From: Tachypleus tridentatus
Lineage: Eukaryota; Arthropoda; Merostomata; Xiphosura; Limulidae
Length of the DNA: 64,000 nucleotides
Assembly (NCBI RefSeq): GCF_004210375.1
Contig: NW_027467782.1
Location: 19,695,276-19,759,275 of the forward strand
Direction: 5' to 3'
Shown: one piece after another, positions 10,460 through 63,290 of the stretch
How positions within the stretch are numbered: the stretch's first letter is position 1
Layout of the letters: each line of letters begins with the position of its first letter
Notes under the pieces: generated by a model
Told to the model about the DNA's origin: nothing
The model's input: the letters and a program-made list of their open reading frames with translations, nothing else
The model's database searches: none
Translations under genes and position numbers: made by a program

Positions 10460-10577
10460 TATGTATAGATACAGATGTACTGGTCAAGTATTTTCCAATA
10501 TGTATAGATACAGATGTACTGGTCAAGTATTTTCCAATATGTATAGATATAGATGTACTAGTAAAGTATTTTCCAAA
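10460..10577. repeat. 39-bp tandem repeat, 3 units
   Basis: Three units of ATGTATAGATACAGATGTAC followed by TGGTCAAGTATTTTCCAAT lie in a PIGA intron. The duplicated intron at 30345-30420 has two units. Confidence 0.85.
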
Positions 10578-11198: not shown

Positions 11199-11259
11199 CT
11201 TTAGTACTTACAACCTGCAAACTAGACACAAAACTAAATAATAATCAGTGATGTCGAGA

Positions 11260-27220: not shown

Positions 27221-27223
27221 CTA

Positions 27224-27339
27224 GCAATAAGGGTGTTTACCTCTTCTGGTTTAAACCACTGAGATAACAAAACAATAAATGTTCTGCTGCAGGAAGTAGA
27301 GAAAAAAAAGTTCTCCAACTGCACCCAATTTGTCGATAC
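27224..27339 (-). pseudogene. PIGA: PIGA last exon (copy 2), frameshifted
   Basis: This corresponds to 8069-8222 with the same acceptor (CCACAG). Compared with copy 1 there is one extra G early (ATTGGG), one base lost after the T run, and one base lost further on in the membrane-helix codons, so the hydrophobic anchor is not encoded in a single frame. This copy cannot make a normal PIGA C-terminus as assembled. Confidence 0.75.
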
Positions 27340-27682
27340 CTGTGGAAGAGGGAAGAAATAATAGTTTTTATACCAACGTAAACTTAACGTCAGATAACAA
27401 TAAAATAGAATCACTTTTTTTCTATGATATAAAACCTTATAGGCTAATACCAGTAAAAATTGGTCCTTAACTTGTGTAAATATACATTACTTGGTGTGTT
27501 TTGATACAAAATTGTTGAAATCAACTTAATTATAAAACAACAACATTTAACCTACATAGTAAACTAATAAATACATTTCATACCATTCTAACCAACAATA
27601 TCTTTTTCAGTATCATAATAATTTTGGAAACTATCCAAATAACAAGACACGAGATTCTTATTCCCCTTTATTATTATACTGG

Positions 27683-28830
27683 AACATGAGTTGCTTGTAA
27701 CTGTTTACTATTCAACTGGAACATGAGCTGTTTCTGTAACTGTTTACTATTCAACTGGTACATGAGCTGTGTGGGTAACTGTTTACTATTCAACTGGTAC
27801 ATGAGCTGTTTGGGTAACTGTTTACTATTCAACTGGTACATGAGCTGTTTGGGTAACTGTTTACTATTCAACTGGTACATGAGCTGTTTGGGTAACTGTT
27901 TACTATTCAACTGGTACATGAGCTGTGTGGGTAACTGTTTACTATTCAACTGGTACATGAGCTGTTTGGGTAACTGTTTACTATTCAACTGGTACATGAG
28001 CTGTTTGGGTAACTGTTTACTATTCAACTGGTACATGAGCTGTGTGGGTAACTGTTTACTATTCAACTGGTACATGAGCTGTGTGGGTAACTGTTTACTA
28101 TTCAACTGGTACATGAGCTGTTTGGGTAACTGTTTACTATTCAACTGGTACATGAGCTGTTTGGGTAACTGTTTACTATTCAACTGGTACATGAGCTGTT
28201 TGGGTAACTGTTTACTATTCAACTGGTACATGAGCTGTTTGGGTAACTGTTTACTATTCAACTGGTACATGAGCTGTGTGGGTAACTGTTTACTATTCAA
28301 CTGGTACATGAGCTGTTTGGGTAACTGTTTACTATTCAACTGGTACATGAGCTGTTTGGGTAACTGTTTACTATTCAACTGGTACATGAGCTGTGTGGGT
28401 AACTGTTTACTATTCAACTGGTACATGAGCTGTTTGGGTAACTGTTTACTATTCAACTGGTACATGAGCTGTTTGGGTAACTGTTTACTATTCAACTGGT
28501 ACATGAGCTGTTTGGGTAACTGTTTACTATTCAACTGGTACATGAGCTGTTTGGGTAACTGTTTACTATTCAACTGGTACATGAGCTGTTTGGGTAACTG
28601 TTTACTATTCAACTGGTACATGAGCTGTTTGGGTAACTGTTTACTATTCAACTGGTACATGAGCTGTTTGGGTAACTGTTTACTATTCAACTGGTACATG
28701 AGCTGTTTGGGTAACTGTTTACTATTCAACTGGTACATGAGCTGCTTGTCATTACTTACTATTCATGTGGTACATGAGATGCTTCTCATTACTTACTATT
28801 CAACTGGCACATGAACTCTCTATTTATTCA
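27683..28830. repeat. 39-bp minisatellite, about 27 homogeneous units
   Basis: The unit is ATGAGCTGTTTGGGTAACTG followed by TTTACTATTCAACTGGTAC. It sits in the PIGA copy 2 intron. Units are nearly identical and differ mainly at one site (CTGTTTGGG or CTGTGTGGG), giving a two-letter pattern along the array. The unit is 13 codons without stops on either strand, so frames of more than 350 codons appear on both strands. Neither is a plausible protein gene, since the array is intronic and the reading is a pure repeat. Confidence 0.95.
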
Positions 28831-29281
28831 ACCATAAGATGAGAAAATATGAATAGAATGTGCTCTGATGAATCACTTATTTCACACCTCTTCAACAATA
28901 ATGACTGACTAGTGACAAAACAGAAAGTGTTAGGACTTTTAAAGGAACCAATCCCTACAATTGTGCACAGTGGAATAATTATAAAACTTACAATTTATTT
29001 ACTTGGTAGTTTTCCAATAGCCATAACCAATACTGTAGTAATGTTCAGTATGATAAATATGGGAAGGTATTTTTATTCAAATAGTATCACATTGCTTTGT
29101 GCAAATAACAAGTGTAAGCACAGAGGAAGGTGATTGCATAATGCTAAAGGTACTGAAAAATGTTCAGTATAATTCATAAAATGTATTTGACATGTTTATT
29201 TATTATATTTTCAAGCTGGACAAGTCTTAGCTGCACTCTCTACAAATACGAAGAACTGTTTCTATTAGAAGAAGCACATAC

Positions 29282-29465
29282 CAGCTAAGTTTAGTACCAA
29301 GACTGTGCACAGGGTCTTGTATGATTTTGTTGTACACTACTTCAGTGCAAGATGCAATATCCTTCCACTGGTATGCTTCTTTACTTTTCTGATGAACGAC
29401 CCATGGAGGTACAACTTTTCCAACTTTTCGATCATATATAGCTTGGTTAAGACCTCCCATGAGAC
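29282..29465 (-). pseudogene. PIGA: PIGA internal exon (copy 2)
   Basis: A 184-nt exon equivalent to 9373-9556, with acceptor AAATTAG and donor GTATGTG. The frame is open. It reads LMGGLNQAIYDRKVGKV, then YQWKDIASCTEVVYNK. Changes from copy 1 include Arg to Cys in the conserved ASRTE motif (human AERTE). Marked pseudogene because both neighbouring exons of this copy are damaged, although this exon alone is intact. Confidence 0.75.
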
Positions 29466-30344
29466 CTAATTTACAGAAAACAAATTTTAAATTTAAGAAA
29501 CTCAACTAGGCTACAACAATATTTAGTTCAGATGTAACTTTAGGCTTAGTCATACAAAACAACACTGATGTGAAATATACAATGTTTCATTTTAATAATA
29601 TAAAACTGATTTCTTTTTACAGCTTGCTCTATCCTCTCATACTTTATTTGGAGTATTATGTTACAGTACGAAAGGGTAAAATGTTTTTGTTGAAAAAAAT
29701 GAATTTTTGTATTGCTGTTAGGCCTTCGTATTAAGCCTTGTTTCCACTAGTTCATATTAGCAAAAGTGACTGCTTGAATTGGTAAAGAAAATTGCTAAAA
29801 AAATATTTAAAAAACAGTGAATATAAACAGGATTTAAAATTATTACATGTATCAAATGAAACCTTTAGGTTTAAAAATCTTCAAAAAATTGGTTTCTTTA
29901 AAACTTGAGTTATTTTTATTGTATTCCAGTGACAGAAAACTGTGAAGCTGTGTATATTATTTTTCAAATTAAAGACAACAATATAGTTTTGTAAAATAGT
30001 ATAGGAAAATTTTAAGACAGTGTAAGAGGACAAAAAACAGAAAATAAAATGTATCACAACAAATATTTTCCACATTTCAAAGCTGAAGTTCATATAAATA
30101 TCACATACACAAAACATCTTCTTTGCAGATGCTACCTGTGGAAAGAAATTCTGAAGTTTCAAACCACTTCATCCAATGGCTTTCTTTTTTAAACAATTCA
30201 ATGTAACAAATCACACAATGGTTGCACAGATTTGATGTACCTGGGTATTACATAGTTAAATACAACTTTGAGGTAATCTAGCAATCTGTATTTCAGTTTG
30301 GCCTAATAAGGTGTGTAGAGCCAAAGGATTTATACAAAGGACTT

Positions 30345-30420
30345 TGTATAGATACAGATGTACTAGTCAGGTATTTTCCAATATGTATAGATACAGATGT
30401 ACTAGTAAAGTATTTTCCAA
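30345..30420. repeat. 39-bp repeat, 2 units
   Basis: Counterpart of the three-unit array at 10460-10577. Confidence 0.75.
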
Positions 30421-30982
30421 ACTTTTGTCATCACTCTTTATGCACGAAACATGATTTCATGTGCCACCATTTTTTTTAGATAAGGGAAAGTTATGTGATT
30501 AGATATAATTCACAGATACATATTAAAACATTATATGTATTGTAGTAATTAATTATTATTTTCTTTAATAAAAAAAATATCTAAACACTTAACTATGCAT
30601 TATTGTGCCCCATCACAGATAATTTATGCCTCCCTGAGATGAGGGTGGAGGGCCCCATGCTACGGGAAATGTTGTACTAGCTGATATGGATGCTATGAGA
30701 ATGAAATAGACAGTATAGTCTGTTCACCACAGGGTTAGTTTTAATGACTCTTTAGTGCTGCAGGGCAAAACAAGTAATGGATTTCATGGTAAGTTAGTTT
30801 ATCTTGCATCCTTTATTTACAGAAATGTTAAGGTGTTTTGGGGCACCTATTCTAAACCACGAAATACTCATGTTAACCTTTCATACTTACTCAGTTTTTT
30901 AGCGGTTTACGACCCTTTTGTATTATCTGATTTACTTCTGAATACAAAAGCTAATTATGAGTGAGAAAAAACAATTACGTAC

Positions 30983-31045
30983 CAGCTACACTAGGTTCTG
31001 TCAACCACACCAGGTCTGGTGGTAAAACCTAAGGTACTCCCCCCA
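30983..31045 (-). pseudogene. PIGA: PIGA internal exon (copy 2), in-frame stop
   Basis: A 63-nt exon with donor GTACGT. Read in the frame that joins to 29465, it gives VGGVP, then TAG where the family and copy 1 have Glu (GAG), then VLPPDLVWLTEPSVA. The length is as expected, unlike the 62-nt version in copy 1. So each copy carries a different fault in the same exon. Confidence 0.75.
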
Positions 31046-31094
31046 CTTTAGTACTTACAACCTGCAAACTAGACAAGAAACTAAATAATATTTT

Positions 31095-43364: not shown

Positions 43365-43412
43365 CAACGCTAAATCAGGGATTCGATTCCCCTCGGTGGG
43401 CTCAGCTATTAA
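43365..43412 (+). repeat. Second-family SINE head, cut off by satellite
   Basis: CTTACAACGCTAAATCAGGG, ATTCGATTCCCCTCGGTGG and CTCAGC, then the satellite starts where the rest of the SINE (AGATAGCC...) would be. Confidence 0.75.
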
Positions 43413-46400
43413 AAACATAGCTTAACTCTTATCATCTTAAAAACATAGCTTAGCTCTTATCATCTTAAAAACATAGCTTAACTCTTATCATCTTAAAAAC
43501 ATAGCTTAACTCTTATCATCTTAAAAACGTAGCTTAACTCTTATTATCTTAAAAACGTAGCTTAACTCTTATCATCTTATCATCTTAAAAACATAGCTTA
43601 ACTCTTATCATCTTATCATTTTAAAACATAGCTTAACTCTTATCATCTTATCATATTAAAAACATAGCTTAACTCTTATCATCTTATCATCTTAAAAACA
43701 TAGCTTAACTCTTATTATCTTAAAAACATAGCTTAACTCTTATCATCTTAAAAACATAGCTTAACTCTTATCATCTTAAAACATAGCTTAACTCTTATCA
43801 TCTTAAAAACATAGCTTAACTCTTATCATCTTATCATATTAAAAACATAGCTTAACTCTTATCATATTATCATCTTAAAAACATAGCTTAACTCTTATCA
43901 TCTTATCATATTAAAAACATAGCTTAACTCTTGTCATTTTATCATATTAAAACATAGCTTAACTCTTATCATCTTATCATATTAAAAACATAGCTTTACT
44001 CTTATCATCTTAAAACATAGCTTAACTCTTATCATCTTAAAAAACATAGCTTAACTCTTATCATTTTAAAAACATAGCTTAACTCTTATCATCTTAAAAA
44101 CATAGCTTAACTCTTATCATCTTAAAACATAGCTTAACTCTTATCATCTTAAAACATAGCTTAACTCTTATCATCTTATCATATTAAAACATAGCTTAAC
44201 TCTTATCATATTATCATCTTAAAACATAGCTTAACTCTTATCATCTTATCATATTAAAACATAGCTTAACTCTTGTCATTTTATCATATTAAAAACATAG
44301 CTTAACTCTTATCATCTTATCATATTAAAAACATAGCTTTACTCTTATCATCTTAAAAACATAGCTTAACTCTTATCATCTTAAAAACATAGCTTAACTC
44401 TTATCATTTTAAAACATAGCTTAACTCTTATCATCTTAAAAACATAGCTTAACTCTTATCATCTTATCATCTTAAAAACATAGCTTAACTCTTATCATCT
44501 TATCATTTTAAAACATAGCTTAACTCTTATCATCTTATCATATTAAAACATAGCTTAACTCTTATCATCTTATCATCTTAAAAACATAGCTTAACTCTTA
44601 TCATCTTAAAACATAGCTTAACTCTTATTATCTTAAAAACATAGCTTAACTCTTATCATCTTAAAACATAGCTTAACTCTTATCATCTTAAAAACGTAGC
44701 TTAACTCTTATCATCTTAAAAACGTAGCTTAACTCTTATCATCTTATCATCTTAAAACATAGCTTAACTCTTATCATCTTATCATTTTAAAAACATAGCT
44801 TAACTCTTATCATCTTATCATATTAAAACATAGCTTAACTCTTATCATCTTAAAAACGTAGCTTAACTCTTATTATCTTAAAACATAGCTTAACTCTTAT
44901 TATCTTAAAACATAGCTTAACTCTTATCATCTTAAAAACATAGCTTAACTCTTATCATCTTATCATCTTAAAAACATAGCTTAACTCTTATCATCTTATC
45001 ATATTAAAAAACATAGCTTAACTCTTATCATATTATCATCTTAAAACATAGCTTAACTCTTATCATCTTATCATATTAAAAACATAGCTTAACTCTTATC
45101 ATCTTATCATATTAAAAACATAGCTTAACTCTTATCATCTTATCATCTTAAAACATAGCTTAACTCTTATTATCTTAAAAACATAGCTTAACTCTTATCA
45201 TCTTAAAACATAGCTTAACTCTTATCATCTTAAAACATAGCTTAACTCTTATCATCTTAAAACATAGCTTAACTCTTATCATCTTATCATATTAAAAACA
45301 TAGCTTAACTCTTATCATATTATCATCTTAAAAACATAGCTTAACTCTTATCATCTTATCATATTAAAAACATAGCTTAACTCTTGTCATTTTATCATAT
45401 TAAAACATAGCTTAACTCTTATCATCTTATCATATTAAAAACATAGCTTTACTCTTATCATCTTAAAAACATAGCTTAACTCTTATCATCTTAAAACATA
45501 GCTTAACTCTTATCATTTTAAAAAACATAGCTTAACTCTTATCATCTTAAAACATAGCTTAACTCTTATCATCTTAAAACATAGCTTAACTCTTATCATC
45601 TTAAAACATAGCTTAACTCTTATCATCTTATCATATTAAAAAACATAGCTTAACTCTTATCATATTATCATCTTAAAACATAGCTTAACTCTTATCATCT
45701 TATCATATTAAAACATAGCTTAACTCTTGTCATTTTATCATATTAAAAACATAGCTTAACTCTTATCATCTTATCATCTTAAAACATAGCTCTACTCTTA
45801 TCATCTTAATATCTTAATAACATAGCTTAACTCTTATCATCTTAAAAACATAGCTTAACTCTTATCATTTTAAAACATAGCTTAACTCTCATCATCTTAA
45901 AACATAGCTTAACTCTTATCATCTTATCATCTTAAAACATAGCTTAACTCTTATCATCTTAAAACATAGCTTAACTCTTATTATCTTAAAACATAGCTTA
46001 ACTCTTATCATCTTAAAACATAGCTTAACTCTTATCATCTTAAAAACATAGCTTAACTCTTATTATCTTAAAAACATAGCTTAACTCTTATCATCTTAAA
46101 AACATAGCTTAACTCTTATCATCTTAAAAACGTAGCTTAACTCTTATCATCTTAAAAACGTAGCTTAACTCTTATCATCTTATCATCTTAAAACATAGCT
46201 TAACTCTTATCATCTTATCATTTTAAAAACATAGCTTAACTCTTATCATCTTATCATATTAAAAACATAGCTTAACTCTTATCATCTTAAAACGTAGCTT
46301 AACTCTTATTATCTTAAAAACATAGCTTAACTCTTATTATCTTAAAACATAGCTTAACTCTTATCATCTTAAAAACATAGCTTAACTCTTATCATCTTAT

Positions 46401-46609
46401 CATCTTAAAAACATAGCTTAACTCTTATCATCTTATCATATTAAAACATAGCTTAACTCTTATCATCTTATCATCTTAAAACATAGCTTAACTCTTATCA
46501 TCTTATCATATTAAAAACATAGCTTAACTCTTATCATCTTATCATCTTAAAAACATAGCTTAACTCTTATCATCTTATCATATTAAAAACATAGCTTAAC
46601 TCTTATCAT
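43413..46609. repeat. 27-28-bp satellite, more than 90 units, layered
   Basis: The basic unit is TTAAAAACATAGCTTAACTC followed by TTATCATC. Some units carry an extra 7-8 bp (TTATCAT or ATTATCAT), others vary between four and six A, or ACGTAG for ACATAG. Rare variants recur at fixed spacing: CTTGTCATTTT at about 43931, 44273, 45384 and 45727 (342, then 343 apart within pairs; 1453-1454 between pairs), and AACGTAGC at 44694/44722/44857 and 46130/46158/46292 (about 1436 apart). So there are blocks of about 342 bp and about 1.44 kb. Confidence 0.95.
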
Positions 46610-46754
46610 CGATTTGCTTATCAAGCTTTTTCTTAAACTGGTTTAAATGTCTGAAACCAACCCATTCAAAATATAAACCACCCTATTACAAAAATAAAAC
46701 TGTTTTAGCTGAATGATGACTCCAACCTTGTCCAGATTTTATATAAATGTATGT

Positions 46755-47130
46755 TGTACAGATAAACAAGTAAAGCTGTCAACCAGGAATGTACATTGTT
46801 CAGATGTATAGGTAAATTAGTGAACCAGGAATATATGTTGTCCAGAGGTGACTGTGAAGCAGCCATCATGGCACGTATTGTCTTCAGAGGTATCAATAAA
46901 GTAGTGAACCAGGCATGTATATTGTTCAGAGGTATTAGTAAAATACACAACCAGGAATGTACGTTGTTCAGATGTATAGGTAAATTAGTGAACCAGGCAT
47001 GTATGTTGTCCAGAGGTGTCTGTGAAACAGCCATCATGGCACGTATGGTCTTCAGAGGTATCAGTAAAGTAGCCAACCAGACATGTACGTTTTTCAGATG
47101 TATCATCAAAGTAGTATACTAGTCATTATG
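46755..47130. repeat. 42-bp repeat with four-unit higher order
   Basis: Units begin TTGTTCAGATGTATAGGTAA, TTGTCCAGAGGTG, GTCTTCAGAGGTATCA and TTGTTCAGAGGTATTAG, then the same order starts again (168-bp block, about two rounds). As 42 is 14 codons, both strands are open for over 100 codons. This is a repeat artefact. Confidence 0.85.
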
Positions 47131-47286
47131 TTGTACAGATATACGTACGAAAAAAACATTTCTGCTGGTGCCTGGCACACCTTTACTACTTCATATAGCT
47201 GGAAGGTCTTGTCTTAGGTTTCCATGCAGGTTGGCAGAAGTTTATCAACTGTAGTAATGTTGTTAACGGAGTTACAAAATGTTATA

Positions 47287-47515
47287 TAGGGTGTTCAGAA
47301 AGTCACTGTGCAGTTTTGTAATTATATGTCTATTCAGTCTATTTCAAGCCAGCAACTGACAGCAGTGTTTAAAAACAAAATAAGAAGGATCCAAGCCAAC
47401 AGGGGTCACTTTTAATATTGTTTATAATTGTTATTCATATTTACCTCCTGTATTCTATATTGAAACATGTCTGTTAATAAATATACAAGTGCACAGTGAC
47501 TTTCTGAACACCCTG
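47287..47515. mobile_element. Tc1/mariner-type MITE, 229 bp
   Basis: The ends are inverted repeats AGGGTGTTCAGAAAGTCACT plus GTGCA, identical over about 25 bp (first base T on the left, C on the right), flanked by TA on both sides (47285-47286 and 47516-47517). Duplicated TA and this end style fit Tc1/mariner. The interior has no transposase. Confidence 0.88.
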
Positions 47516-47519
47516 TACA

Positions 47520-48225
47520 AATGATCTTTTGATAGTTTATTTATTCTATTTACCTGATGACGATTTAAAACTTTCTCCATTTACAGTGTGTTTCAGTGGC
47601 GAGTTATGATTGTCACAATCTGTATTTTGTTCAAAGCATATATACAATCCAAAATGGTATGCAGTATTTGAAATATATAAAAGCACATTCTGCTGTCATT
47701 CGTAAGTCCAGGATTTGGTAACACACCTTAAAATGTGGCTTATGTTTTGTTGCACTGAACTTCTTCACCCATTTGTATCCATATTTTGAAGACCACAGGA
47801 GATTCAAAACATGTTTGTCCATATTTCAGAACATCATGTTACAAACCATTTGTTGGGTAAGAAAGCAACTGGGTAATGTAAACTAAATGTCATATCTCAC
47901 TGAATATCTAGTGATTACTGTGATCAACAATTTGTTTTGAGATTTCTGAAAAATTTAATATCTCATGTATAGTGAAAGAAATAAATGGCAAGGTTCATAG
48001 ATAATTAAGATTATATTTTAAACTAATTTTTTTAAAAATAAATGATTAAGTTTTAACAAATGAAAAACTTAAATTTAAGTAAAGTGAAAATAAAGTATTT
48101 TTCAAATCTGTGCAACTTTTGTATAGGTAGTCTAATTATTCTAACCATTTCTCATAAGTATGTCAATGTGAAATAAAACCAATAACACAGAGTCAAAAGA
48201 CACACTTCAGTATAAAATAACCACT
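47520..48225. other. Unassigned region
   Basis: A 63-codon minus-strand frame (47631-47822; MDKHVLNLLWSSKYGYKW) has coding-like composition but no recognised family and no clear splice context. Confidence 0.3.
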
Positions 48226-48228
48226 CAC

Positions 48229-48352
48229 TTGTATTCTGGTGTCTTCAGCTGCTAGGAAAGACTTAACTAGCTCTTGAACCAATTCATAAGCAAAGTTTTC
48301 ATCTTCTACACTTAAATAAAAAAATGAAGACTTTTGGTTCTCACTCAATCTC
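48229..48352 (-). CDS. ATR: ATR exon in inverted orientation
   Basis: The minus strand reads RLSENQKSSFFYLSVEDEN, FAYELVQELVKSFLAAEDT and RIQ, then donor GTGAGT. Human ATR has VEDSSFAYGLLMELTRAYL then YADNSRAQ immediately before DSAAYAIQELL. The next ATR residues here (DCASYALQETL) start the exon at 54226, which is on the plus strand. The phases match (phase 0 on both sides). The acceptor is uncertain: AG at 48353-48354 fits the frame, and an AG at about 48363 has the better pyrimidine tract but gives an in-frame stop. No other ATR exon is visible on the minus strand. Confidence 0.8.
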
Positions 48353-48447
48353 CTCATTTATAATCTAAAAACAAAACAAAAGAAGATAAACATTTATTTA
48401 AGTTTCAACTCAAACTTCTCTACTTCAAAATAATCTGTATTCCTATA

Positions 48448-48619
48448 TGTATTCTTGAGACAGCTAATATGGATATTAGAACTTTAATTAACATAAAGCA
48501 CAGAAAAATATTTTGATCTTCTCATGTAATATTCAGGTTAACAAAGAGAGAGTTTGCAACTGACTCTGCTTTATGTTAATTAAAGTTCTAATATCCATAC
48601 CAGCTGTCTTCAGAATACA
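48448..48619. repeat. Long inverted repeat (53-bp arms, 66-bp spacer)
   Basis: The left arm (48448-48500: TGTATTCTTGAGACAGCTAA then TATGGATATTAGAACTTTAA) is mirrored at 48567-48619 with only a few mismatches. It would form a stable hairpin or cruciform. It lies about 100 bp from the inverted ATR exon. It could be a foldback MITE or be tied to the rearrangement. Confidence 0.9.
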
Positions 48620-48624
48620 TTTTT

Positions 48625-51330
48625 ACTTGAAGTGTGTTTCTCATCTTCACGAACGTATTCCTATATATTACAAATAACTTATGAACTGTTGTTTAGAGAT
48701 GCACATAAATTATTCATGCAAGTTAATGTAAATGTATAAAAAAAAAAAAAAAATGAAGGGCTTTCCAACATCTTTTCTAAAACTTGTCATTTACTAGGAT
48801 CTATATTACTGATTTTAACAGATACACGAACTCCAATAAACTAAGTTTATTATATTTTGTTACAAAATAATTGCACTGAATACAATAAATAAACTGCAGT
48901 GAGTCCAATACAGCTAAAAAACAATAGAAACAGGTTACTGAATAAGTACTACTGAATTCTTCAGTCTTCATGTTCCCTTAATTATACTTTTTCAATTTCA
49001 GTGCAATAACAAGTGATATGAGCCTTGCATCTTTTCCCTAAATACTGTTCTTTACCTGCAGTTTGCAACAAAATCAACTTGTATTTATTGAACACATTAC
49101 TTCAACTTGCCAAAAGGATTGCTTTTAAACCTGACTGACTGCTTAAACATAAAATACATCACCATGCAAAATAATTCAGTAAAGTAGATTCAGTCATATT
49201 GTCATGAAAAACTTCCTTCACATTATTATGTACATAACCACTATTTTAGACTTTGTGATGTTTCTATATAATTGTATTTCATGACTGTTAAGCACTTTCT
49301 CATTTTATTATGGCAATTCCACCTAACAAAGAAATGGAAACTTTGTTAATCAAAACAACTTTGATATTTCTACATTGTGTTCAGTTGGTTGGTGTTTATT
49401 GTCACAAACCAACTAGACTATCTACACCAAACAAGCAGTAAAATAGGAAAAAGGAATGTCTTATAAAAGGCAAAAAAATAAATTAAATTAAAACAAAACA
49501 ATGTCCAACATTTGGATAAAAGATCTAAATAGAATTAAAAAGGCAAATGGCCCATAAAAAGTTAAAGACATGAGGAAGTCGGACAGTGTTACCATTTCCA
49601 ATGTCAAGGGTAAACCCATACTTAAGGCATATCAAAAATGGTGCCATCACTTATGATTGTAATGATGGCATGACAGTAAAACATGGTTTATTATGACTTG
49701 AGTGTTACAAAGGCCACAAATTGGTGGCTCAGTCGCAGATGAAAGAAAATAATGAGATAAAAAGCTTTAAAATTGAGTGAAACCAGGGAGAAGAGACCTC
49801 AGTGTTGTCTTTACAAATCCACTACTATCACTAGTCAGTAGGAACATTAAGATTGTTCAGGACATAGAATTTTGTGTGGAATCAGCAGATCAGTTTTCTG
49901 GGAGGGCAAAAAATATAGAAATGTCACTTTTGTTTCTAAGTGAAATGTATTTAGAGAAGAGAAAATACTTCTAAAAGTGAAGGAATTTCTTCACTGAAAC
50001 AGTGTTAAGCTACATCTGCATAATTTTAGGACTAACAGGTTTCACTTTTATAAGCTCATTCATTACTTACAAATAGACTTAATGTGTTGAAATAAAATTC
50101 TTTGTAGACTGAGAATGTTTGTATCCTGAGTTCTGAAGCACCCATTGATAAAGTTGCAATATTGCTTTGGAGTTTTCATTATTGTGAGTGAAAGACCTGT
50201 TGAGCTTCATGTATTTGTAGATAGTGAAAAATATTAGACACACTCGAGATTATAGGGTTGTTAATAAAGTGCCAATATCTAAAGTTTCTAACAAGAAGTA
50301 ATTATTCTTGAGGAGAACTTTTGGTGTACACATAATTCAAGAACTGTACTGTATAACGAATCTATGTTGATTGTATATGTGACTTTTTTTTAACACAGGC
50401 TTAGTCTCTGGGACTGGCTTTATAATCATTTTGTGTTTGATACAATTTTCAAGCTATTACTTTTAAATTAATAAATATATCTTGATGGAACTTGGTATAT
50501 TATCAATAAATATTACAAGATTTGTTATGCAAAATATTGTGTTTTTTTTTATGAAGTCGTAAGCTTTTCTTTTGCCTTTTTTTCTTTTTTGCATGTTTCT
50601 TATCATTTTGAGATGAAAAATACTTTCATGCATCAGAAAATTTTCAAATTTCACATACAAAATATAACATTCAAAAACTTATCAAATGTTTATTAAGGAA
50701 AAACATTATGTTTTGCCCTTTATTTTTTACTAATGAATCTCTGTAGGTTTGGTTGATTTTACTGATTTTGTAACCAAAAAACAAAATATGTGTGTGTGTG
50801 TGTATATGTATAAATTTTGCCCTTTTCATTCTGGGATGACAACAGAGTATAACATGAAAACACAAATGTTTAGACTAAATAGCTTAAATCTTATAACATT
50901 ATACATTCATATATATTTATTATTTTTATTATAACAACCTTTCATCCATGCATGCCTAACAATACAGAAGCTACAGAGAAGCAGTGCACATGTGTCATAT
51001 TACTGTATTAAGTTATATGGAACTAATTTTTACTATCCACAGAGTGACCTGTTTTGACTGTGTTGTAGTGGAAAAGGATTGTGCAAAATACAGTCACATT
51101 TCAATTATTATACATTATATATGTATTTACAATACTGTTATTTACAGGTAACAAATATACAGTTTAAATAAACAAAATAGTCATAAGTTACAATATCAGT
51201 ACTGTAGAATTCCACTATAATTTATCAAGCTTAGTAAGTAAGCTGTATTTAGGTCTAAAAAAATATGAAATTCCAACATAATGATTATCTTTTCTCACAT
51301 ATGTGAACTTTACACATGCTACAAACCTTC
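48625..51330. other. Non-coding DNA; one possible dispersed repeat
   Basis: No exon found. 49380-49960 contains sequence of repeat-like style (TTTATTGTCACAAACCAACT, GGTGGCTCAGTCGCAGATGA) but has no second copy in the window. A TG microsatellite lies at 50788-50805. Confidence 0.35.
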
Positions 51331-53330
51331 TGCTCCCCACTTTTGGAATTGTAGGATTTCAATGCGTTTCTCATCCGAATCGTCGTGTGACATACTCATT
51401 TGACATATGTGGTTCCTTCTACACTCCTCTACTGAACTATCACTTCTCATTTGACAGTGCTTAGGTTTGGAAGAGCTTTTTCTTTTTTAAGGTTGTATTT
51501 ACTGCTCACAAGGTTCTATCACTTTTGGGGATATGGCATTATTGTTAGCAGCTCGAGATGGTGATTCCTCCTTTTCTTCCATTTTCCATCTTTCCCCTTG
51601 ACTTTATCCGTGTAGGCTTCTGTGCTCAGTGAGAGCTCTTTGTTGACATACTGCTTCCTACCAGGATACGTTTTCTTTATCCTCTGGCAATCCTCCTCTG
51701 TTCATGATCTTTTACCTACTTTTTTTGCCAGTTAGGTCCATCTTTTGTTTCAGTTGGTCTATTTCTCTTGGAATTTGTTCTAGGTATACTCCTATCAGAT
51801 CTGACAATTTCACTTTTCCCTTGCTTGCCTTTGTCATCCATTCTAAGTCTTCCATTATATTGCAGTTTCCTCTTTGTTTGGGGTGTTATCTTCCACCTGT
51901 AGCCATTCTTCATAATTCTGTGTGACTGACTGTTAAGTTTCTATTTATACTTTCCTTTTCTTTTCACAGGTCTTCTTTTCATTCATCATTATTTTGATTC
52001 TGTTCTGTGGTCAGACACCAGGATTTTTTTAAACTTTAAATCCACACTGTACTTCCATGATGTGTTCAATTTATCTTCCATGGCTTCACACATTCACCAT
52101 TGAGATGGGGTGTTCCACAAAATCACATATAGGTTCATGATTTTCATGATATTTTGTGTTTCATAACCAAGCCCATCCCAGACTGTATCACCCTTGGACT
52201 GAATGGGAAAACAGAAGGGGTTTGTTGTTCATCCCAATCATTCCTAGAATTAATAACTCAGTATGGTCTGATTTTTCAAAATAAGATTTTGTGGTTATGT
52301 GGTGATACTGCTTTGGATTTCACCACCACATTGTCACCTTCCTTGCTTCAAGTGGAGTATGGGCATCCTTACAACTCCAGTTCCAAATTGCTGAGGTGGT
52401 TGACCCTGAAGGCACCCAGCTGAATGAGTTACTCACAATAACCAATAAATTACAGAATAGGGTGGTGGTATTTTATGGGTGTAGATGATGTGATATTATT
52501 CTCTTTATGATAACCATTGACAACAGAATGAGACATCAAGATGTAATTCATCCCTTTTATTGGAAACTGTCATCCTACTCTGAACTAAATGTTGTTACAC
52601 TATAAGAAGGTTTTGAATTTAGAGTGAACTCATTTACTTAAGTTCTCACACATATTTCAAGTTAACTATCTTCCTAACTCAATTTCCTCCATCTTGGCTG
52701 TGGGTCACAGTAATGATTTGTGAAATTGTTCTGGTTCTGTCATTGGCTATCTCTTGTTTCTTGTTTTCTCATCTTAATATTAGGGGTATGATATTGTCTA
52801 TGGATGGTCCTGGCCCATTTCACAGTTATGGGAGTTGATTACATGCAACAGACATTCTGTTGATACCAATTCAATAGCTCAGATCTAATCCTAGTGTCAT
52901 ACCCAGGAATTAGAGTGGGTTTCAATTCCCCATTTCATGGGATTGAGGTAAAGAGGGTATGCTCTTTATTCTACACTCACATGGATGTTGGTATCTCATG
53001 GGCATGTTTTGAAAGTAGTTGATTTACTATGTGTAGTCCATTGCATCAAGCTGCTGTACACCTAGGGTGTTTCTTTTGTTTACCTGCCTTTCCTATTTTG
53101 AGATTGAGTTACAGTATTGGTTATGACCACTTTCTTGCCACATTCTCTCTCACTCTGATGTACTCCTCTCATTTTTTTTCCCTTATATTTCACACGTTTC
53201 ATAATCGGATGAAGAGTATCCCTGGCTCAGAAATGGTCCACTTCCCCTTTCTATGATCTTCAGATCTGATTCTTTCATTTCCAAGATATCCTTCAGATAA
53301 TTTTAAAATATTCTTTTGTCATATCCTCAC
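51330..53330. other. Unclassified block, probable decayed element
   Basis: About 2 kb that is less AT-rich than its surroundings and has many interrupted coding-like runs on both strands (plus: LRLSYSIGYDHFLATFSL near 53100; minus: RSIPRTNSKRNRPTETKD near 51750). Composition and sharp edges suggest an old inserted element, but no diagnostic domain or terminal repeat was found. I cannot name the family. Confidence 0.35.
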
Positions 53331-53599
53331 ACTGGTCCCTCCTTGTTATCAATGTAAGATTCTAGCTAATATTGTGAGAGTAGATAATTACAATATCAGA
53401 AGTCTTAATTTTCCCTATACTGAAAATGTATTTTCAATGTACTTGTCATCTCTCACAAGATTAACTGTTCTTATTTAGTGTTGCCCTTTGTATGTGAACT
53501 TTTTCTTTATGCATACTACAAGTCTTCCACTCCCCTTGAATTGGGATTTGTTTATCAAGGAAATCATCATCCATTATCCTCTCATATTCCTGTTAATAC

Positions 53600-54090
53600 T
53601 TTAGGTCTTTTACAGTAAACACAGTCACATGATACCTTATATCTTTCACAGTAAACACAGTCACACGTGATACCTTATATCTTTCACATTAAACACAGTC
53701 ACGCATAATACCTTATATCTTTCACAGTAAACACAGTTGCACATGATACCTTATATCTTTCACAGTGAACACAGTCACAACGTGATACTTTATATCTTTC
53801 TTCTATATCTTTCACACTAAACACAGTCACACGTGATAGCTTATATCTTTCACATTAAACACAGTCACACATAATACCTTATATCTTTCACAGTAAGCAC
53901 AGTCACATGTGATACCTTATATCTTTCACATTAAACACAGTCTTGCATAATACGTTATATCTTTCACATTAAACACAGTCACACATAATACCTTGTATCT
54001 TTCACAGTAAACACAGTTGCACATGATACCTTATATCTTTCACAGTAAACACAGTGACACGTTATACCTTATATCTTTCACAGTAAACAT
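53600..54090. repeat. 38-bp tandem repeat, about 13 units
   Basis: The unit is CTTATATCTTTCACAGTAAA followed by CACAGTCACACATGATAC. It ends about 135 bp before the ATR exon acceptor at 54225, so it lies in the ATR intron. Confidence 0.9.
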
Positions 54091-54225
54091 ATTGTATTGT
54101 GTGTATTTATTGTTATTTTTATTTCTCCACTTCCTAACGTTTTTCTTTCTTTCTGGAACTGAAGTTTTTCATGCTGTGTTTATGACTGTTTTCTTATGTA
54201 AAGTACACATTTTTCTTTTTTGTAG

Positions 54226-54374
54226 GACTGTGCATCTTATGCACTGCAGGAAACCTTACAGATATATACTTGTCAAAGTGGAGAGTTGTCACAAATTGTG
54301 AGACCAAGTGGTAGTCTTTGGAACAGGTTTTCAGAAGAGGTTCAAGAAATTTTGGTACCTTTGCAGCACTCTAG
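54226..54374 (+). CDS. ATR: ATR exon (C-terminal HEAT region)
   Basis: ATR is the large PI3K-like protein kinase that, with ATRIP, senses RPA-coated single-stranded DNA and activates CHK1 in the nucleus. The acceptor is TTTTTGTAG, the donor GTATGT, length 149 nt. It reads DCASYALQETLQIYTC, then LWNRFSEEVQEILVPLQHS. Human ATR has DSAAYAIQELLSIYDC, then LWRRFPEHVREILEPHLNT. The frame is intact. This is the first of six plus-strand exons in the correct order (54226, 54665, 55450, 57777, 62394, 63293). The preceding exon is found only at 48229-48352 on the other strand. Confidence 0.9.
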
Positions 54375-54664
54375 GTATGTATTTTATTTTTATTATAATG
54401 AAATTTAGACAGTAATTTTCAGTTATTTTCTTTCTTATCAATTATTTTTCTAACATTGTTCATTGTGTTATGTTTTTCTTTTATCTTTACTGTGTTATAA
54501 AACATTACAATTCAACAGTATTTTAGCATAGTTTAAACATTAAAAACTCAATTTTTTTTTAATATTTCACATAAACTGAAAAGTTATTTGAATATTGAAG
54601 TTGTTCTGCTTTTTTAATAAAAGTTAAAAAAAAGTTCATCAGGTTTTCTGTTATTATTTGATAG

Positions 54665-54778
54665 GTACATTATGTCTAGTAACAAGAGGACTTCCTTTCC
54701 ATGCCCAATATATGGGAGCAAACTAGGAAGCACTTTTAAAGATTGGGCCTGTAATTGGGCATCTTGTCTTCTCAGAAG
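54665..54778 (+). CDS. ATR: ATR exon, one base short
   Basis: It follows in phase from 54374 (Arg codon split AG|G) and reads RYIMSSNKRTSFPCPIYG, then SKLGSTFKDWACNWASCLL. Human has RYKSSQKSTDW..., KPIYLSKLGSNFAEWSASW, AGYL. The donor is GTAAGA. The exon end (CTCAGAAG) leaves phase 2, while the next exon needs phase 0. One A more (a Lys codon, as in human LITK) would restore it, so one base is missing in the AGAAG run or the copy is frameshifted. Confidence 0.85.
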
Positions 54779-55449
54779 GTAAGAAGCACTTTTCTGTGAT
54801 AAAAGAAATGAGATAATTAGGTTGCTAATCAATATTATTGTTATAGGTGATTATTATATTAATTAAAACCATGACAAAATTTGAACTAGAGATCAGACTG
54901 TGTAGATAAAAGTATTACTGAAACAGAAGCACCTCACAGTTCAGCTAAACATATCTGTTCACACAGTTCTTGTAAGTTTGAGTTTCATTTCCTTTTCTAA
55001 TTCAGGAGAATGTTAATTTCAACTATTAAGTAACGTGCACACAGTTCTGTAACATTTGTCACAGTTTTAGCCCATTAGGAGCACATTATTGAAACTTACT
55101 CTACAAATATGTTTAGAACATAAAGGTGGTATACACTTTTAGAATTTCTTTTTTTTGGGGGGGGGTAGACTACTGTAGTATCAAAGACAAGTACTAGATT
55201 ATAATCACCACATTACACTTAAAATTCTCTCATTTTGTCTTTGTATATGTTAATTTTCTGTTTTTAATGGAAAGAAAAGAAATAATGCAGAATAGTTTTT
55301 TATAAAACTGCTTTTGAGAACAGATTATGCCATAGAGAAAACAACCAAAATCATTTCAATTTAAAACTAACTTTTCCATGCTCATTAGCATGTTTTAAAT
55401 GCCCTTAATTTTATAAAATTTATATGGTTTTGTGTATTTAATTTCTCAG

Positions 55450-55587
55450 ATAAAGCGAGAGAATACAGCTAGAGTTTTTCAGTCATGCTTCATGATTGTC
55501 AAAAACGATGTGAAGACAGCAGTTTTTCTTCTTCCTCACATCATGGTTAATGTTTTACAAGATGCAAGCAATGAAGAAAAGGAAGAT
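55450..55587 (+). CDS. ATR: ATR exon
   Basis: 138 nt, acceptor AATTTCTCAG, donor GTTTGT. It reads IKRENTARVFQSCFMIVKND, then VKTAVFLLPHIMVNVLQD, ending NEEKED. Human has VRHDLASKIFTCCSIMMKHD, then FKVTIYLLPHILVYVLLG. It joins in phase to IYREIMAVL at 57777 (human VYAEIMAVL). No internal damage is visible. Confidence 0.88.
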
Positions 55588-55589
55588 GT

Positions 55590-57770
55590 TTGTTTTAAGA
55601 AATAATATAAAGTATAAAAGTAAATGTACATAATTCTTTATATGACATTTTCTTTTTTCAGAAGTAAAGAATGTAATACAACTGATAGGCTGTGAGATTT
55701 TAAAGACAGAGCTTAGCATTGATAGCCATTTGACAGACTTCTGCATCTTCTCTTATCAGATTGGCCAATCATTAATTTTGTTTAGATCTGGTAATAAAAT
55801 GTTTTAAGGGTAAGAAAGCAGGGAACAGAAAGAAAATACCAGTACCAGTACATCTGCTTTGATGTTTACAGTAAATAGAAAAGATTCTGAATTGGTTAAT
55901 TATCCATCAGTCAGCCAAAGGTATTCTGACTTTTGGGACATTTTACTTAACTTTAGTCTTTCAGTCGTTTTTCAGGATGTGAATTCTATTGTGAGAAACT
56001 ATTTTCAAAATAATATTAAAAGTACTTCCTTTTATCAAAAAATTTTCTTTCTTTCTTATTGTTGATTACAAATCCTAGTTCCATCTTACATATCTAGTCA
56101 ATTTCAACTTGATTGAAAGTAACATTATTTCTTTTGACAGTTTATTTTGCCAGTTACAACTGTCACTGCCAGAAACAAAGATAAAACTGTCAAAAAATGT
56201 ACGAGTGACCTATGGTCAGATCTTTGAAATTGAGATCAACGTTACTTTTGTCAGTCTAATTAACAATATTTTTGCTAAGAGTATTCTTGGACAGCATGAA
56301 TTTATATCTAATAATGTTTTTTTTTAATAGATATTAAATTATTTATGTGTATCTTATGAGTGCTATAAACTTAACAGTAACATTCAAGAAGAAATAGTTT
56401 GAATTATTAGAATAACTTGTTTTTATTTACCGTACATGTTTACTTAGCTTATGTGCACTGAAGTCTTGTCATAACTTTCAACAAATATAATGTAATATGA
56501 TAAACATGAATGTTAAAATAAACTATAATCCACTTTTGCATGTTACACCAAATGTTATAGCATTAAAAATACCAGCTGAACAGTGATTTTGATTTATATA
56601 ATTATATAAGACAACATTGTTTGTTTTTTGAATGCTGTGCAGTGTAAGACTACAGTGTTACTGCAATAGTAAATGATGCACAGGCAGATAGGTTTAAAAA
56701 AACTGCATCTAGGTTGAGTCAGGTGTCTAAAGCTCTGTTTGGTTGGTTAAACTTGCTCTTAGACTGTGTCAAATGTCTGTAGTTTTTACTTTGGCACTGT
56801 AAGTATACAGACTGCTAAAATAGAGACTATACGAGGATAGCTTGTATTTCACACACCTACTAAGGTGCATTATGCTCACATATAGCAGGAAATGACTTAC
56901 TTCTTATTGTGCCAAGAACATACCAAGTGGACCAACAATATAAGAATAGTAATTTTACAAGTGAGCTATGTCTCACCCTGCTACCACATAACAGCTATGT
57001 GCTTATTTGATGAGTATCTGAGAGTCAGGTTAAATACCATATTCATATGGAGACATTGTACATATGATGGTGATTCAAGTTGGTGTTGACAGCAATGAAC
57101 ATTGGAAGACTTTGTTTTACGATCTTCTGATTGGACTACTAATGCCTTAAATTCTATTATCCTGTGTTCTGTCACATAATGAATTATGATTTTCATTCTA
57201 ACTGTGTAGAAGTAATCAGTACATCGTCTTCAAAAAGAGGGGACTGAGTGAAGTGTGTCACCAGTCTTCATATCCATTGTTCATGCATGAGATACTCTTG
57301 TGAGCTTCATCACATCCTATGAAATAATTCAGAATACTGAAAATGACCTGAAGGTATTTGTTTTTATGGAGTTATTACTGATGCCTTAGAACTTAATGAA
57401 CATTCTTATTTCGAGTATACAGCATCAGTGCTGTACTGCCTTTGTTGTTCATGGTGGTTGTCCTACATATTAAGATGAAATCCCCAGAATTGTGGAGGTG
57501 TAAAGATGACTGTTTTATACCAAAGTGAACTGAAAATGTGAGCTGAATAATGTGTTCACAGCAGTTTTTGCATTATCATAGATATTATAAATTACAAGAA
57601 TCTATGAAATATTTTGCTGCATATTTTAGTAGTAGAATTTTTAAAAGCAAAATGGAATGTGAAATAATTTTTTTAACGTTGATAATCAAGGTAGATTTTA
57701 ATCTCACTAAAATTTAGAATTAATATGTGTTATTATAAAAAGAAAAGCAAAACTTTTTATGTATTTGGGT
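55590..57770. other. ATR intron
   Basis: About 2.2 kb. A TTTTTTCAG acceptor-like site near 55655 with a 48-codon open frame (EVKNVIQLIGCEIL) looked like an extra exon, but it would break the ATR alignment. Otherwise only short frames without motifs. Confidence 0.5.
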
Positions 57771-57776
57771 TTATAG

Positions 57777-57984
57777 ATCTACAGAGAGATTATGGCTGTT
57801 CTAAGCCATGTTGACCAAGCTGAACAGAGCAAATTGAAGTTTCATGAGAAGACTGACCTTTGCCACTTGAGTGCCCAGAGTGTGTTTTCAATATTGGATT
57901 GTTTAACGGTTTGGTGTCATCAGTATTTTGTGATGTTGAGATCTAGTAACCAGAATAACTCCAAGCCTGCAAATAAAGGGAAAG
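57777..57984 (+). CDS. ATR: ATR exon
   Basis: 208 nt, acceptor TTTATAG, donor G|GTTGTT, ending in phase 1. It reads IYREIMAVLSHVDQAEQ, DLCHLSAQSVFSILDCLTVW, then NQNNSKPANKGK, and V is completed by the next exon. Human has VYAEIMAVLKHDDQHTINTQ, then DLCQLSTQTVFSMLDHLTQW and NRNKVD. The frame is intact across the exon. Confidence 0.9.
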
Positions 57985-59439
57985 GTTGTTGGAATACTCA
58001 TTAATTAATCATGAGCTTAAGTTACTGGTATTTTATGTTCTTTTTCTTTGAGAAATTAAAGACTGTAAATATTATAAAACAATTAAAATGCCCGTTCTAG
58101 TGATTGATTAACAGCCTTATTTATGTTTTTACAACATAAAAATGTCACTTTGCTAGAAAATAAGTAATGATTTATTAGGGTAATAATTTCAAAATTTGAA
58201 GCAGAGTTACCAGAATATTTTCTCATGTAAAATAATTGAATTTACTACAAGACTTTCATCTGTAGAAGCTAGTGGTGGTAATAACTTTTGGGTAACAAAT
58301 TTTCTACAGTGTTCTTTAAGAAAAATTAATTTCATTATTAGTCTAGCCTGTATTTCTAAAACTGTTGTGTTGCCTTTTAGATTCCTTTAGGTAGAGGAGA
58401 AGGTTTGTCCACTAAGTTGTTGTTACTTTCTCATTGTGTAAAGCATAATTCTTTGGTTACAGGTTGAGATCCAGTCATATATATTTATATACACACACAA
58501 AACATTGTGGTCCAATAACCCTAACCACTAACATGAGATACAGGTTTCATGACTGCCTAAATCCAACCTTGGCTACCTGGTTGAGGCTAACCTATACGAA
58601 TAATTACTCGTATTCTGTTCCACCTTGGATATAAAAATTAAGTTTCAGGTGAAGAGCATATCTGTTCTGGAGGTAGTTCTGTTCTCCCACTCTTGTACTA
58701 TTCTTTTTCTTGGTATACTCCTGTTCTATGAAGACACTTTCTGTATGGATCATGCCTGCACCAGCCCCTCCACCTTCTTAACATGGGATTCTAGTGTCAG
58801 TAGATGGTATATTTCGAAAGTTAACTGAACATGTATTTTCGATAATACTTACCTTCACTGACACTCTCCTGTTCTACCTTCCCACTAAAACCAAATGTAT
58901 TTCTCAGAAAAAGTGACTGTGTTGTCAGGATGAGATGGTTATATACAGTACCTAGTTAGAAGGCACATTAAAGTTTGTGGAGCAGTTTGCTAGTTAGAAC
59001 TTGTCTAAGGTATTTAAGTTGGGTATAAAAGACTGAAGTTAGTATTTTCAGTGCTTAGATGGGCAAAATATGGAATCCTTAGAGATCATGAAATAGATGT
59101 AATGTCTGCATAGGTAAGCATTATTGGAAGTGCATTTTTAGTTTAAGAAAGCATTAGTTTCCATTTTTGACACATTACCATCTAAACCCTGAGTTTGACT
59201 TATAGTTTAATGAAGAGCAATTGAATATTTTAAATGGTAGTGTGTACACAAACCTATATATGTCACTTAGGTCTTTAACATTCAAGAGATGTACAAACAA
59301 GTCATCATGTTCTTTCAAGAGCTGTAGTTTGTGACAGGACCTTTTCATCCATGTAGCAAGTGTATAGTTATATTGTGACCTAATCTGGTGCATTATATTC
59401 AGTACTGTGTGGTCTAACTTTCATGCAGTATTAAGGACT

Positions 59440-59690
59440 TAACAATGTTTAATCCTTGTACAATGGGTCATGGATCAAAGGCCATCTTGTTGTGTTTGTT
59501 GACTTGCATTCAAGATTGTATTGAACAAATATTTTATGAATTTAAGTCAGTAAGTTTGGAATCAAATTGTAGATTATAATTTTACTATTTAATGTTATGT
59601 ATGAGTTAATTTCTTAGTTTAAAAATAAGTATTAAAAGAACATAAATATTGATTTTAGTGAGTCACATGTTATGTTTAATGCTGCACAGT
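59440..59690 (+). repeat. Dispersed repeat, copy 1
   Basis: CAATGGGTCATGGATCAAAG, then GCCATCTTGTTG and TTGTTGACTTGCATTCAA match 63428-63620 over most of their length. No inverted ends were recognised. The family is unknown. Confidence 0.65.
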
Positions 59691-61894
59691 TTAAAATTAG
59701 ATGTTTGTGGTGTCAAAATACTAAGTTCACAGTTTCATACAAATTAGTAACTCAGATTACTAACTTTGACAAGCTAGAATATAAAATAAAAAGGTATGAG
59801 GTCTTTAACACAGTGGGCCCTATTCAACTCTTTCCAATTTTTGAAACAGTCCATTATATACTCTTACTACAGTGTATGACATGTGAATAACCAATCAGTA
59901 GCTTAAGATGTTCCTAAAGTGGTTTTTTTAGCTATTTTAATCTTCGAAAAAGCTAGTGTTATTCCAATCTAAGTTTTCAAGGAGTTCGGTTGTGTCTTTA
60001 GTCTGCTCATAGTTTCATATATTTTAAAATTGATATAAATCTAGTTACTAAGTGGAATTCTATGGTATCAGTGTAGTTACTTATGATTTTTTGGTTATTC
60101 AACTGTATGTATAAAACCTAAAAAAAAATTGTTTGATATCCTCCACTTGTGAAATTTCAAAAGGCTTAGCAACTTATGTCCAGCAACAACCAAGTACAGA
60201 GATCGTAGAGAAGAGATAATTGTTTGCTTTTCCCATTTTTTTCTATATTTTAAGATAAGTTTAATAATTTATTTCTAAATAGTCATAATGTATATACATA
60301 TATATAATGTATAATAATTTAAATGTGTCTGTATATTACAAAATACTAGTCCACTAAAACACAGCCAAGACAGAAAAGACTAAAGGTCAGTTTTATGTTA
60401 CTGGATATGTAATATGAGAGCACCAGATCAATGCAAGTTGCACAATGCTAGCTAGGCATGACTGGAAGGTCAGTAACATAATAAATATATATGTAACATA
60501 TAGCATTATGAGACTTAGTCTACTTAAACTAAACATTTGTATTTTCATGTTACAATACGTCATCATCATAGCACTAAAAAAATAAAATTATTTATTTCCT
60601 AATTTTTTAATGATAGTTACAAAGCTAGTTAAGTGACAGACCTCACAGCTGGAGTGTAGAAAATAACATAATGTATAAAGGTTTGCTGAAATCAAACATC
60701 TGAAATATATTTAGGAAGTTTTAGAGATTATGCAAATAATATTTGAGATTTTTGGGATGAAGAACAGTTTTTAACTCATAACATGAAATCACTTTGCACT
60801 CATACTAGTAATGAAACAGACTCAATTTTCACAAACAGATCTTTTATAAAAATAGTTCATGAAACATCTGATTTTGTAAAAAAAATACTTGTATCTGTAA
60901 TAATGTCTACCAGATTTTGTGAAGGTACATGTGCTGTATCAAAAGTTATAGTACAAATACTTAATGTGTGCAAATGTGTAGATGAACTTGTATATTATAC
61001 TGAGTCTGTAGCAAAAGGGCTAAATGACTGCTAGTTATAATTTTTTCCTGATCTCTCTCTAGCAAAAGCTATCCTTCATATATAAAATGAAGTAGCATGT
61101 ATAAACTATCTGTTACACCTTATTCATTGATATTTGTATGTAACTTGTAAAAATATGTAACCTGTAAACTTTAGAACTACATTGATAATGAAGAGAAATT
61201 CATCTTCGTATGTGGCTTATGTACTTGTATTGTATATTGTGTCTTCAACTTGGTTCACTGATGAAAACTTGACTGCATTTAACAGAAACAAGATATGTCA
61301 GCAGTCTCATTTGAAAAATCTGATAAGCTGACAATTTTGCAGATTTTGGTTTAAAGTGGAGAAACTATAGAATGATGTGTTGGAGCTTTCATCCTGAAAG
61401 GAAGCAAATGTGATGATTGTTATGGTATAAATAAAACCAGAATTTACAAAATATTCGATTTCTCAAAACAAGCAAAGTAAGTTGCAGTTTAATAATAAAA
61501 TGATCTTGTGGAAACCACCAAAATGTGTTGCCAACTTGCCCTTGAAAGTAGAAATTCAGCTAATAAATGATGGCAGAGTTTCAATGTTGAATTCATTTGC
61601 AATTTTTCAGTTTCTGTGCCACATCTCCTTTAGCTCTATATATATATCAACATACTCCATGAAATGCTTCAGTTCATTGTAGAGTCAAATTATTGCAACA
61701 TCAGTATTTTGGGATTCTTTAGTGGTTTTTATTGTTTTTCTGATAAGCTTCAAAGATCTGAAGTTGTTTACATGTACAATCTGTACTATTATAGTTCATT
61801 CAAACTTTGCTGCTTTCAACATCTGTTTTGTAACTGATATCAACTTCTGTTTAGAACTTTATCGTTAAAATAATAGATAAAATTCCAAATTATT

Positions 61895-62255
61895 GTGATG
61901 TGACCAATTTTCTTTTGACTTGATGGAGGTTGTTAAGATTTTGTTATTGACAAATAAAAACCCATAATTACACATTTTTGCAAGGTGACCTGTTTTTCTT
62001 GGACCTGACAGAAATTTTTGTGATTCTATTCTTTACATAATAAGACATGGTTTGTAATTATTGGTGACCTAATGGAGGTCCTATGGGTTTTGTTCTTGAC
62101 AGAATAAAAACAATTCTTAGTTGTTGAGATGTAATCTGCTATTAGGACCTCAAGATGGCTGTTTTGGTTCTGTTGTTAACAGAATAGAATTATTCTCAGT
62201 TATTGAGATGTGACCCATTAAGACCTCATGATGACTGTTGTGGTTCTGTATATTC
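61895..62255. repeat. Degenerate 80-90-bp tandem repeat, about 4 units
   Basis: Units share GTTATTGAGATGTGACC, then AGACCTCATGATGACTGTT and GTTCTGTTGTTAACAGAATA in diverged form, at the 3' end of the ATR intron. Confidence 0.6.
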
Positions 62256-62393
62256 ATAAGCTCATGCATAGAATGAATACACCAATTTTCCTTAATCTAT
62301 AATAAATGTTTTACATGTAAAGACAATGTATTTTTCGTTTTTTGTGATTTGCTTTTGCTAATGCATGAATTGACAAAGTTGTTATTTCTCTAG

Positions 62394-62565
62394 TGGACCC
62401 ACATAATGATCCCAACTATAAGTCTGTTTATGACTTCCTGAAGAGTGTTCCAGAAGACCTTTTAGCTCCTTTGTTTGTCAAGCTTATGCTTGGGCTTTAA
62501 TGTATTTAGAATTATCAATCAAGAATAACCAAGAATCATCAAGGCTACAGTTGGCTTTCTTGCAG
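62394..62565 (+). CDS. ATR: ATR exon, one base short
   Basis: Acceptor TTTCTCTAG, donor GTAAAT. It reads VDPHNDPNYKSVYDFLKSV, PEDLLA, and then, in a frame shifted by one base, FVCQAYAWALMYLELSIKN and SSRLQLAFLQ. Human has VDYEDYQSVTRFLDLI, PQDTLAVASF, then SKAYTRAVMHFESFI and LGFLQ. The length is 172 nt where 173 is needed, with one base missing near GCTCCTTTG at about 62467. This is the start of the FAT domain. Confidence 0.87.
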
Positions 62566-62569
62566 GTAA

Positions 62570-63290
62570 ATAATTTTGAAATGATATCTCTTGTAATTTT
62601 GTATAATGAAATATTAATACTACTAAGATTACATCACATGCCAGAATATTCTGTTTGATTTCAAATGACAAAGTAATAGTTTAAGGAAAACAATAGATAT
62701 TGGTAATTTTGCATTGAAACAGATTTTAAGTGTGAATCTGCAGTGTGTGTTATGTGAAGTTGCAATATTCATGAGATGAATAGAAACCAAACTGTGTAAA
62801 GTTTAATACTTACAATCTTTCAATGAGCTAATTGTATAATAAAATTCTGGGCTTGTACCTCAAACTCAGATTTGTGCTATAACTTTTGCTACTGTCAGAC
62901 TTGCATCTTCTGTAGTACAACTTTACATGCACATATACATAAAATTATAGCTCTCAAAGAATATTTTCAGAGTACTCATGTTAAAATGTTTTATATTTTT
63001 ATTGTCTACACCTTTTCTCCTGATAATTTGGTTATTTGGTTCATATCAACAAAATTTCCCATTATTTCAATGGTACTGTCACAGGGCAGACTCAGTGTAC
63101 CTTATTTCTGATCCTGTGCCTCTCCTTACCTGTTAATGAACTTCAGAATCACTCTTTATAAGAATAAGGAATCTAAGAATATTCAGTATTCAAATGAAAA
63201 AATGTTTTTATATATATATAGGATGAATGCATTGTTTTTTTATTACTACTTTTTTCAGTTGTGATCAGTATGCATCTATTTTTTTGTCTT
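62570..63290. other. ATR intron
   Basis: About 0.7 kb, no feature recognised. A short TA microsatellite lies at 63210-63220. Confidence 0.5.

Follow-up and report, generated by a model that had tools for sequence, protein, structure and literature searches.

The window, a 64,000-nucleotide stretch of the Tachypleus tridentatus assembly (C19:19695276–19759275; genome searched, 2.17 Gb), carries a partial duplicate of the ATR gene with its introns, one among about 30 in the genome. We consider it very probable (roughly 0.85) that this one copy was reshaped by a three-break deletion–inversion–deletion and that it is now a dead pseudogene. This reading is built on copy number, orientation, block boundaries, junction sequences, a stop codon and a frameshift, all of them observed. 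The flipped exon at its centre is a true feature of the assembly with an ordinary explanation. Because it belongs to a single broken, incomplete copy among about 30, it is no evidence that the working ATR gene is split. Of greater interest than the flip, and more unusual, is that kinase-less ATR has spread roughly 30-fold, mainly on C19.

Exon A (48229–48364, minus strand; VEDENFAYELVQELVKSFLAAEDTRIQ) is followed by the donor GTGAGT at 48229, while exon B (54226–54374, plus strand) starts DCASYALQETLQ. The two lie on opposite strands, though exon B should come directly after exon A. An earlier note on this DNA had read exon A on the minus strand but its continuation (DCASYALQETL, at 54226) on the plus strand, and both the strand reading and the donor bear this out. 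Its claim that the two exons are adjacent in ATR is likewise right, because exons A to E strung together match PDB ATR contiguously and in order (23ew_A 1375–1608, E 2.3e-49; from its length we take this chain to be human). Of the bounds it gave for exon A, 48229–48352, the end at 48229 stands. The start is probably 48364, after TTTTTAG, since the TAA at 48358–48360 that the longer exon takes in is a stop codon of the window's copy and of none of the 12 other aligned copies. Deeper in exon A, frame-breaking indels are found in two of those 12 (C9 and C14:7.69 Mb), and the C3 copy has two indels that cancel each other. The window's exon A cannot splice to the window's exon B.

Genome-wide searches place exon A at no fewer than 28 sites, the window included (22 on C19, two each on C14 and C4, one each on C9 and C3), and exon B at no fewer than 30 (23 on C19, four on C4, two on C14, one on C9). 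Copies of exon A are 94–100% identical, and identity of the window to other copies is 95–99%, introns included, in stretches 2.6–12.7 kb long. The earlier note's suggestion of a second partial ATR copy is therefore correct, the window's copy being one of about 30. When exons A and B were paired by proximity between the two tables of places, 26 of the 27 other exon-A places had exon B on the same strand, colinear and about 3.4–6.6 kb downstream; the 27th, on C3, is without exon B. Hence the opposition of A and B in the window, the sole opposed pair among the exon-A places found, is more than chance. A colinear exon A in a continuous ATR locus elsewhere had been named as the result that would speak against a split gene: colinearity with the neighbouring exon is found 26 times, but no complete contiguous ATR was found in this assembly.

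Truncated copies are common in the family, as seen from three exon-B places without exon A nearby (C19:30750420, C4:20398852 and C4:20463602), from the C3 copy without exon B and from an orphan 5' piece, a lone UME exon at C19:3412103–3412264 with no exon A near it. At least 18 places have the UME exon and at least 29 have exon F; no UME exon was found in the window and no exon F on C3. Some 22 places with ATR fragments, in both orientations, are spread over 31 Mb at C19:14.1–45.4 Mb, with smaller sets on C4 (20.2–20.5 Mb), C14 (7.7 Mb), C9 and C10. By title or abstract start, we found no report of ATR amplification in animal genomes in the open-licence PMC literature.

The forward part of the window's copy, block D onward (49768–62575, plus strand), comprises introns and exons B to F and may extend further. 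After exon B come exons C (approximately 54657–54785; C19:19749932–19750060), D (approximately 55438–55590; C19:19750713–19750865) and E (approximately 57783–57986; C19:19753058–19753261), all on the plus strand. A 7-bp deletion puts exon F (62370–62575, plus), whose domain match comes from open copies, out of frame. In an alignment of 19 rows (the window and 18 of the 28 other exon-F places), this deletion is present in 11, the window and 10 of the 18 others. Two of the remaining rows have a 102-bp deletion, one has single-base losses and five are open (C4 twice, C14 twice and C19:24.87 Mb). The copy family gives an M-HEAT_ATR profile match of 54.7 bits as well as UME matches, and all three distinct sequences matched at E ≤0.001 are ATR rather than other PIKKs. 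With its introns retained, its high identity across them and its disabled frame, the window's copy has the marks of an unprocessed pseudogene. From the stop codon in exon A and the 7-bp deletion in exon F, we read this 5'-truncated copy as dead.

Comparison of copies shows that the flipped exon described in the earlier note is part of a larger inverted unit, not inverted by itself. This 2.6-kb block, S (47150–49766), has its coding strand on the minus strand, the rest of the ATR copy being on the plus strand. At 22 other places S is accompanied by the start of block D; the window's S is 97–99% identical to these, and in all 22, among the matches listed (best 40 scored), the relative orientation of the two is opposite to that in the window. 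In five further S places among the matches listed, neither the end of S at the junction nor the beginning of D is present, so these provide no test of the junction. The C9 and C19:38.95 Mb copies run block U, S, 53 or 54 bp, D, whereas the window runs minisatellite, S reversed, D. A short element with 44-nt inverted ends lies inside S at 47282–47520; it may be a mariner-type MITE.

Neither junction has extended homology. At J1 (47144–47150) an A/T run of S meets the unit of a 42-bp minisatellite, with a few unmatched bases. At J2 (49766–49768) the upstream end of S is joined to D: the sequence reads AATGAGATAAAAAGCT-T-TAAAATTGAG, in which homology to S stops, one extra base follows and D starts. 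There is no clear microhomology at J2, and the 53–54 bp of the colinear copies are missing. Block U is absent from the window among the matches listed (best 40 of 10766 candidates). It is found at 25 places in that search, and S, whole or in part, lies no more than about 3.5 kb from each of them; the remaining 15 scored places are only 69–74% alike. A displaced reciprocal 5' piece was rejected on this count. Four other S copies (two on C14, C19:14.18 Mb and C19:36.7 Mb) also lack U among the matches listed, which means that U may have been lost before the flip.

A dispersed repeat that contains minisatellites of 28/36 bp and 42 bp (43409–47144) adjoins the ATR copy. A second copy of this repeat, from C19:19784249 onward and in the opposite orientation, continues past the point of J1. 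Within the window's repeat, minisatellite sequence forms an open frame at 46705–47118 that scores 20.3 bits against a cut-off of 38 for Baculo_PEP_C, a match that is probably a repeat artefact. Elsewhere in the window, 6258–11243 and 24455–31090 form a direct local duplication in pieces, about 88–95% identical, with 37/39-bp minisatellites (29.6 units at 27667–28814), and a minus-strand open frame at 38105–38620 matches a DDE_1 transposase (E 1.1e-9).

A deletion–inversion–deletion would account for these boundaries as follows. The sequence upstream of S would have been lost, the 2.6-kb block with exon A turned round, 53–54 bp lost on its other side, and the flipped block joined to the minisatellite of the dispersed repeat. 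We infer that all this happened in one event, by end joining or by replication-based template switching, though U may have been lost stepwise, apart from that event. The pattern of one inverted segment with loss on both sides (53–54 bp and block U) is that of the delINVdel class known in human disease genomes, for which one report (PMC6286558) sees replication-based template switching with microhomology as the main cause. Judged from the junction sequences, end joining would fit the near absence of homology at least as well as template switching.

Block S may be as old as its surroundings. In an alignment of S from the window and 12 of the 27 other exon-A copies, restricted to positions where no fewer than 9 of the 12 are represented, 12 of the window's substitutions occur in no other aligned copy; the corresponding figures are 42 for C3, 26 for C19:45.33 Mb, 7 for C9 and 0 or 1 for each of the other nine. 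With the C9 and C19:38.95 Mb copies used for polarisation, the density of substitutions private to the window is 6.1 per kb in S; four segments of D give 5.1, 5.9, 2.5 and 5.4 per kb. This near equality is what would be expected had S aged with the window locus. S and the region of exon B may, however, differ in history, since the window differs from the C19:38.95 Mb copy by 0.22% around exon B but by 0.96% across S. The position of the window in a tree of S from the 13 copies is weakly supported (0.77).

These substitutions bear on the alternative that survives best, a local misassembly, with a block of one of the near-identical ATR copies turned round, or joined chimerically, during contig building. 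About 30 copies with exons A of such similarity are error-prone to assemble, J1 sits in a minisatellite, and the assembly breaks at ATR elsewhere, where a 500-N gap adjoins the C3 copy. Neither junction has a gap, however, and the 12 substitutions absent from the 12 other copies argue that S was not pasted in from any sampled copy (12 of 27 aligned). We regard misassembly as unlikely. The related option of the earlier note, a contig placed backwards, finds no support in the window: the only run of N in the window (500 N, 22760–23259) is 24 kb off and there is no gap at either end of the flipped piece, on which grounds scaffolding reversal within the window was rejected.

Much less probable than misassembly is a large inversion of C19 with one end in the A–B intron that split a working ATR gene. 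It would put exons A and B on opposite strands, and copies of the minisatellite repeat do lie some 0.5 Mb from the orphan UME exon at C19:3412103. Yet the flipped block stops after 2.6 kb, the UME exon and block U are missing from the window, and no U place is without S nearby (0 of 25; best 40 of 10766 candidates scored). Moreover, the window's copy carries both the stop and the frameshift, and the sole ATR kinase exon found is on C3. The note's inversion is thus present, but in a 5'-truncated pseudogene copy and not at the locus of the kinase exon. The same note had proposed a 53-bp-arm inverted repeat beside the exon as the inversion substrate. The repeat exists about 85–95 bp from exon A, with arms measured at 57 nt (48447–48503 and 48564–48620; 91% complementary), but recombination between these 53–57-bp arms has next to no chance of being the cause and was ruled out by the breakpoints, which lie outside the arms: it would turn round only the 60 bp between them, the repeat sits in mid-S, with more than 1.1 kb between it and either junction, and among the matches listed most other copies, uninverted ones included, show its self-match too.

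The ATR kinase exon was found on C3 only (C3:67839164–67839384, minus), with a FATC match on the same strand 16 kb beyond it. No kinase or FATC match on C19 is among those listed, and up to the window's end neither was found in one gene with the window's copy. A second piece, on the plus strand at 67.98–68.01 Mb, holds the UME exon and exon A; it ends at 68009794 and is directly followed by a 500-N gap (68009797–68010296), so that C3:67822785–68010296 spans both pieces in their opposed orientations. Neither DNA nor protein search found exons B to F on C3, and a diverged parental set of these exons there was rejected for that reason. A search with the M-HEAT_ATR profile, which recovered just 5 of the 29 known exon-F places, found none on C3, and a FAT profile search gave no place assignable to ATR. 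Our guess is that the C3 arrangement is an assembly fault rather than a real disruption.

What looks like a split essential gene is one damaged copy of a multi-copy family, a distinction that reading a single window cannot make. The roughly 30-fold spread covers the central part of ATR, at least from the UME exon to exon F, and lies mostly on one contig; unless this is taken into account, annotation of ATR in T. tridentatus is liable to produce chimeric models. A bolder proposal, which we hold to be improbable, has three parts: that the kinase-less ATR fragments of C19 are an ampliconic set specific to the lineage, on what may be a sex chromosome or another chromosome that does not recombine; that some copies with open exons, such as those with open exon F (C4, C14 and C19:24.87 Mb), give rise to a kinase-less ATR-like regulator; and that the essential C3 gene is itself broken up. 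No telomere repeat array was seen at ten contig ends.

Four known systems invite comparison. The window's copy resembles the ATR kinase gene of the PIKK family in that exons A to E follow PDB ATR in order, with UME and M-HEAT_ATR matches in the family; it differs in its missing 5' part, its frameshift and its flipped block, and the kinase exon was found on C3 only. It is like unprocessed (duplicated) pseudogenes in segmental duplications in its retained introns, its 95–99% identity over kilobases, its many copies and its own lesions, but here partial copies of one checkpoint kinase gene are unusually many and mostly on one contig. With the delINVdel reported for the CEP78 case (PMC6286558), it shares an inverted, retained segment between two deletions; there, at least 3 bp of microhomology is described at 8 of 8 junctions, whereas the window has none that is clear at J2 and a few unmatched bases at J1. 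Finally, a report on a seed beetle describes Y-linked copies of TOR (PMC10414808), which are alike in that a PIKK gene was copied to another chromosome and duplicated there. In the beetle, by that account, the copies are few and on a known Y, whereas here some 22 places lie on contig C19, without the kinase exon.
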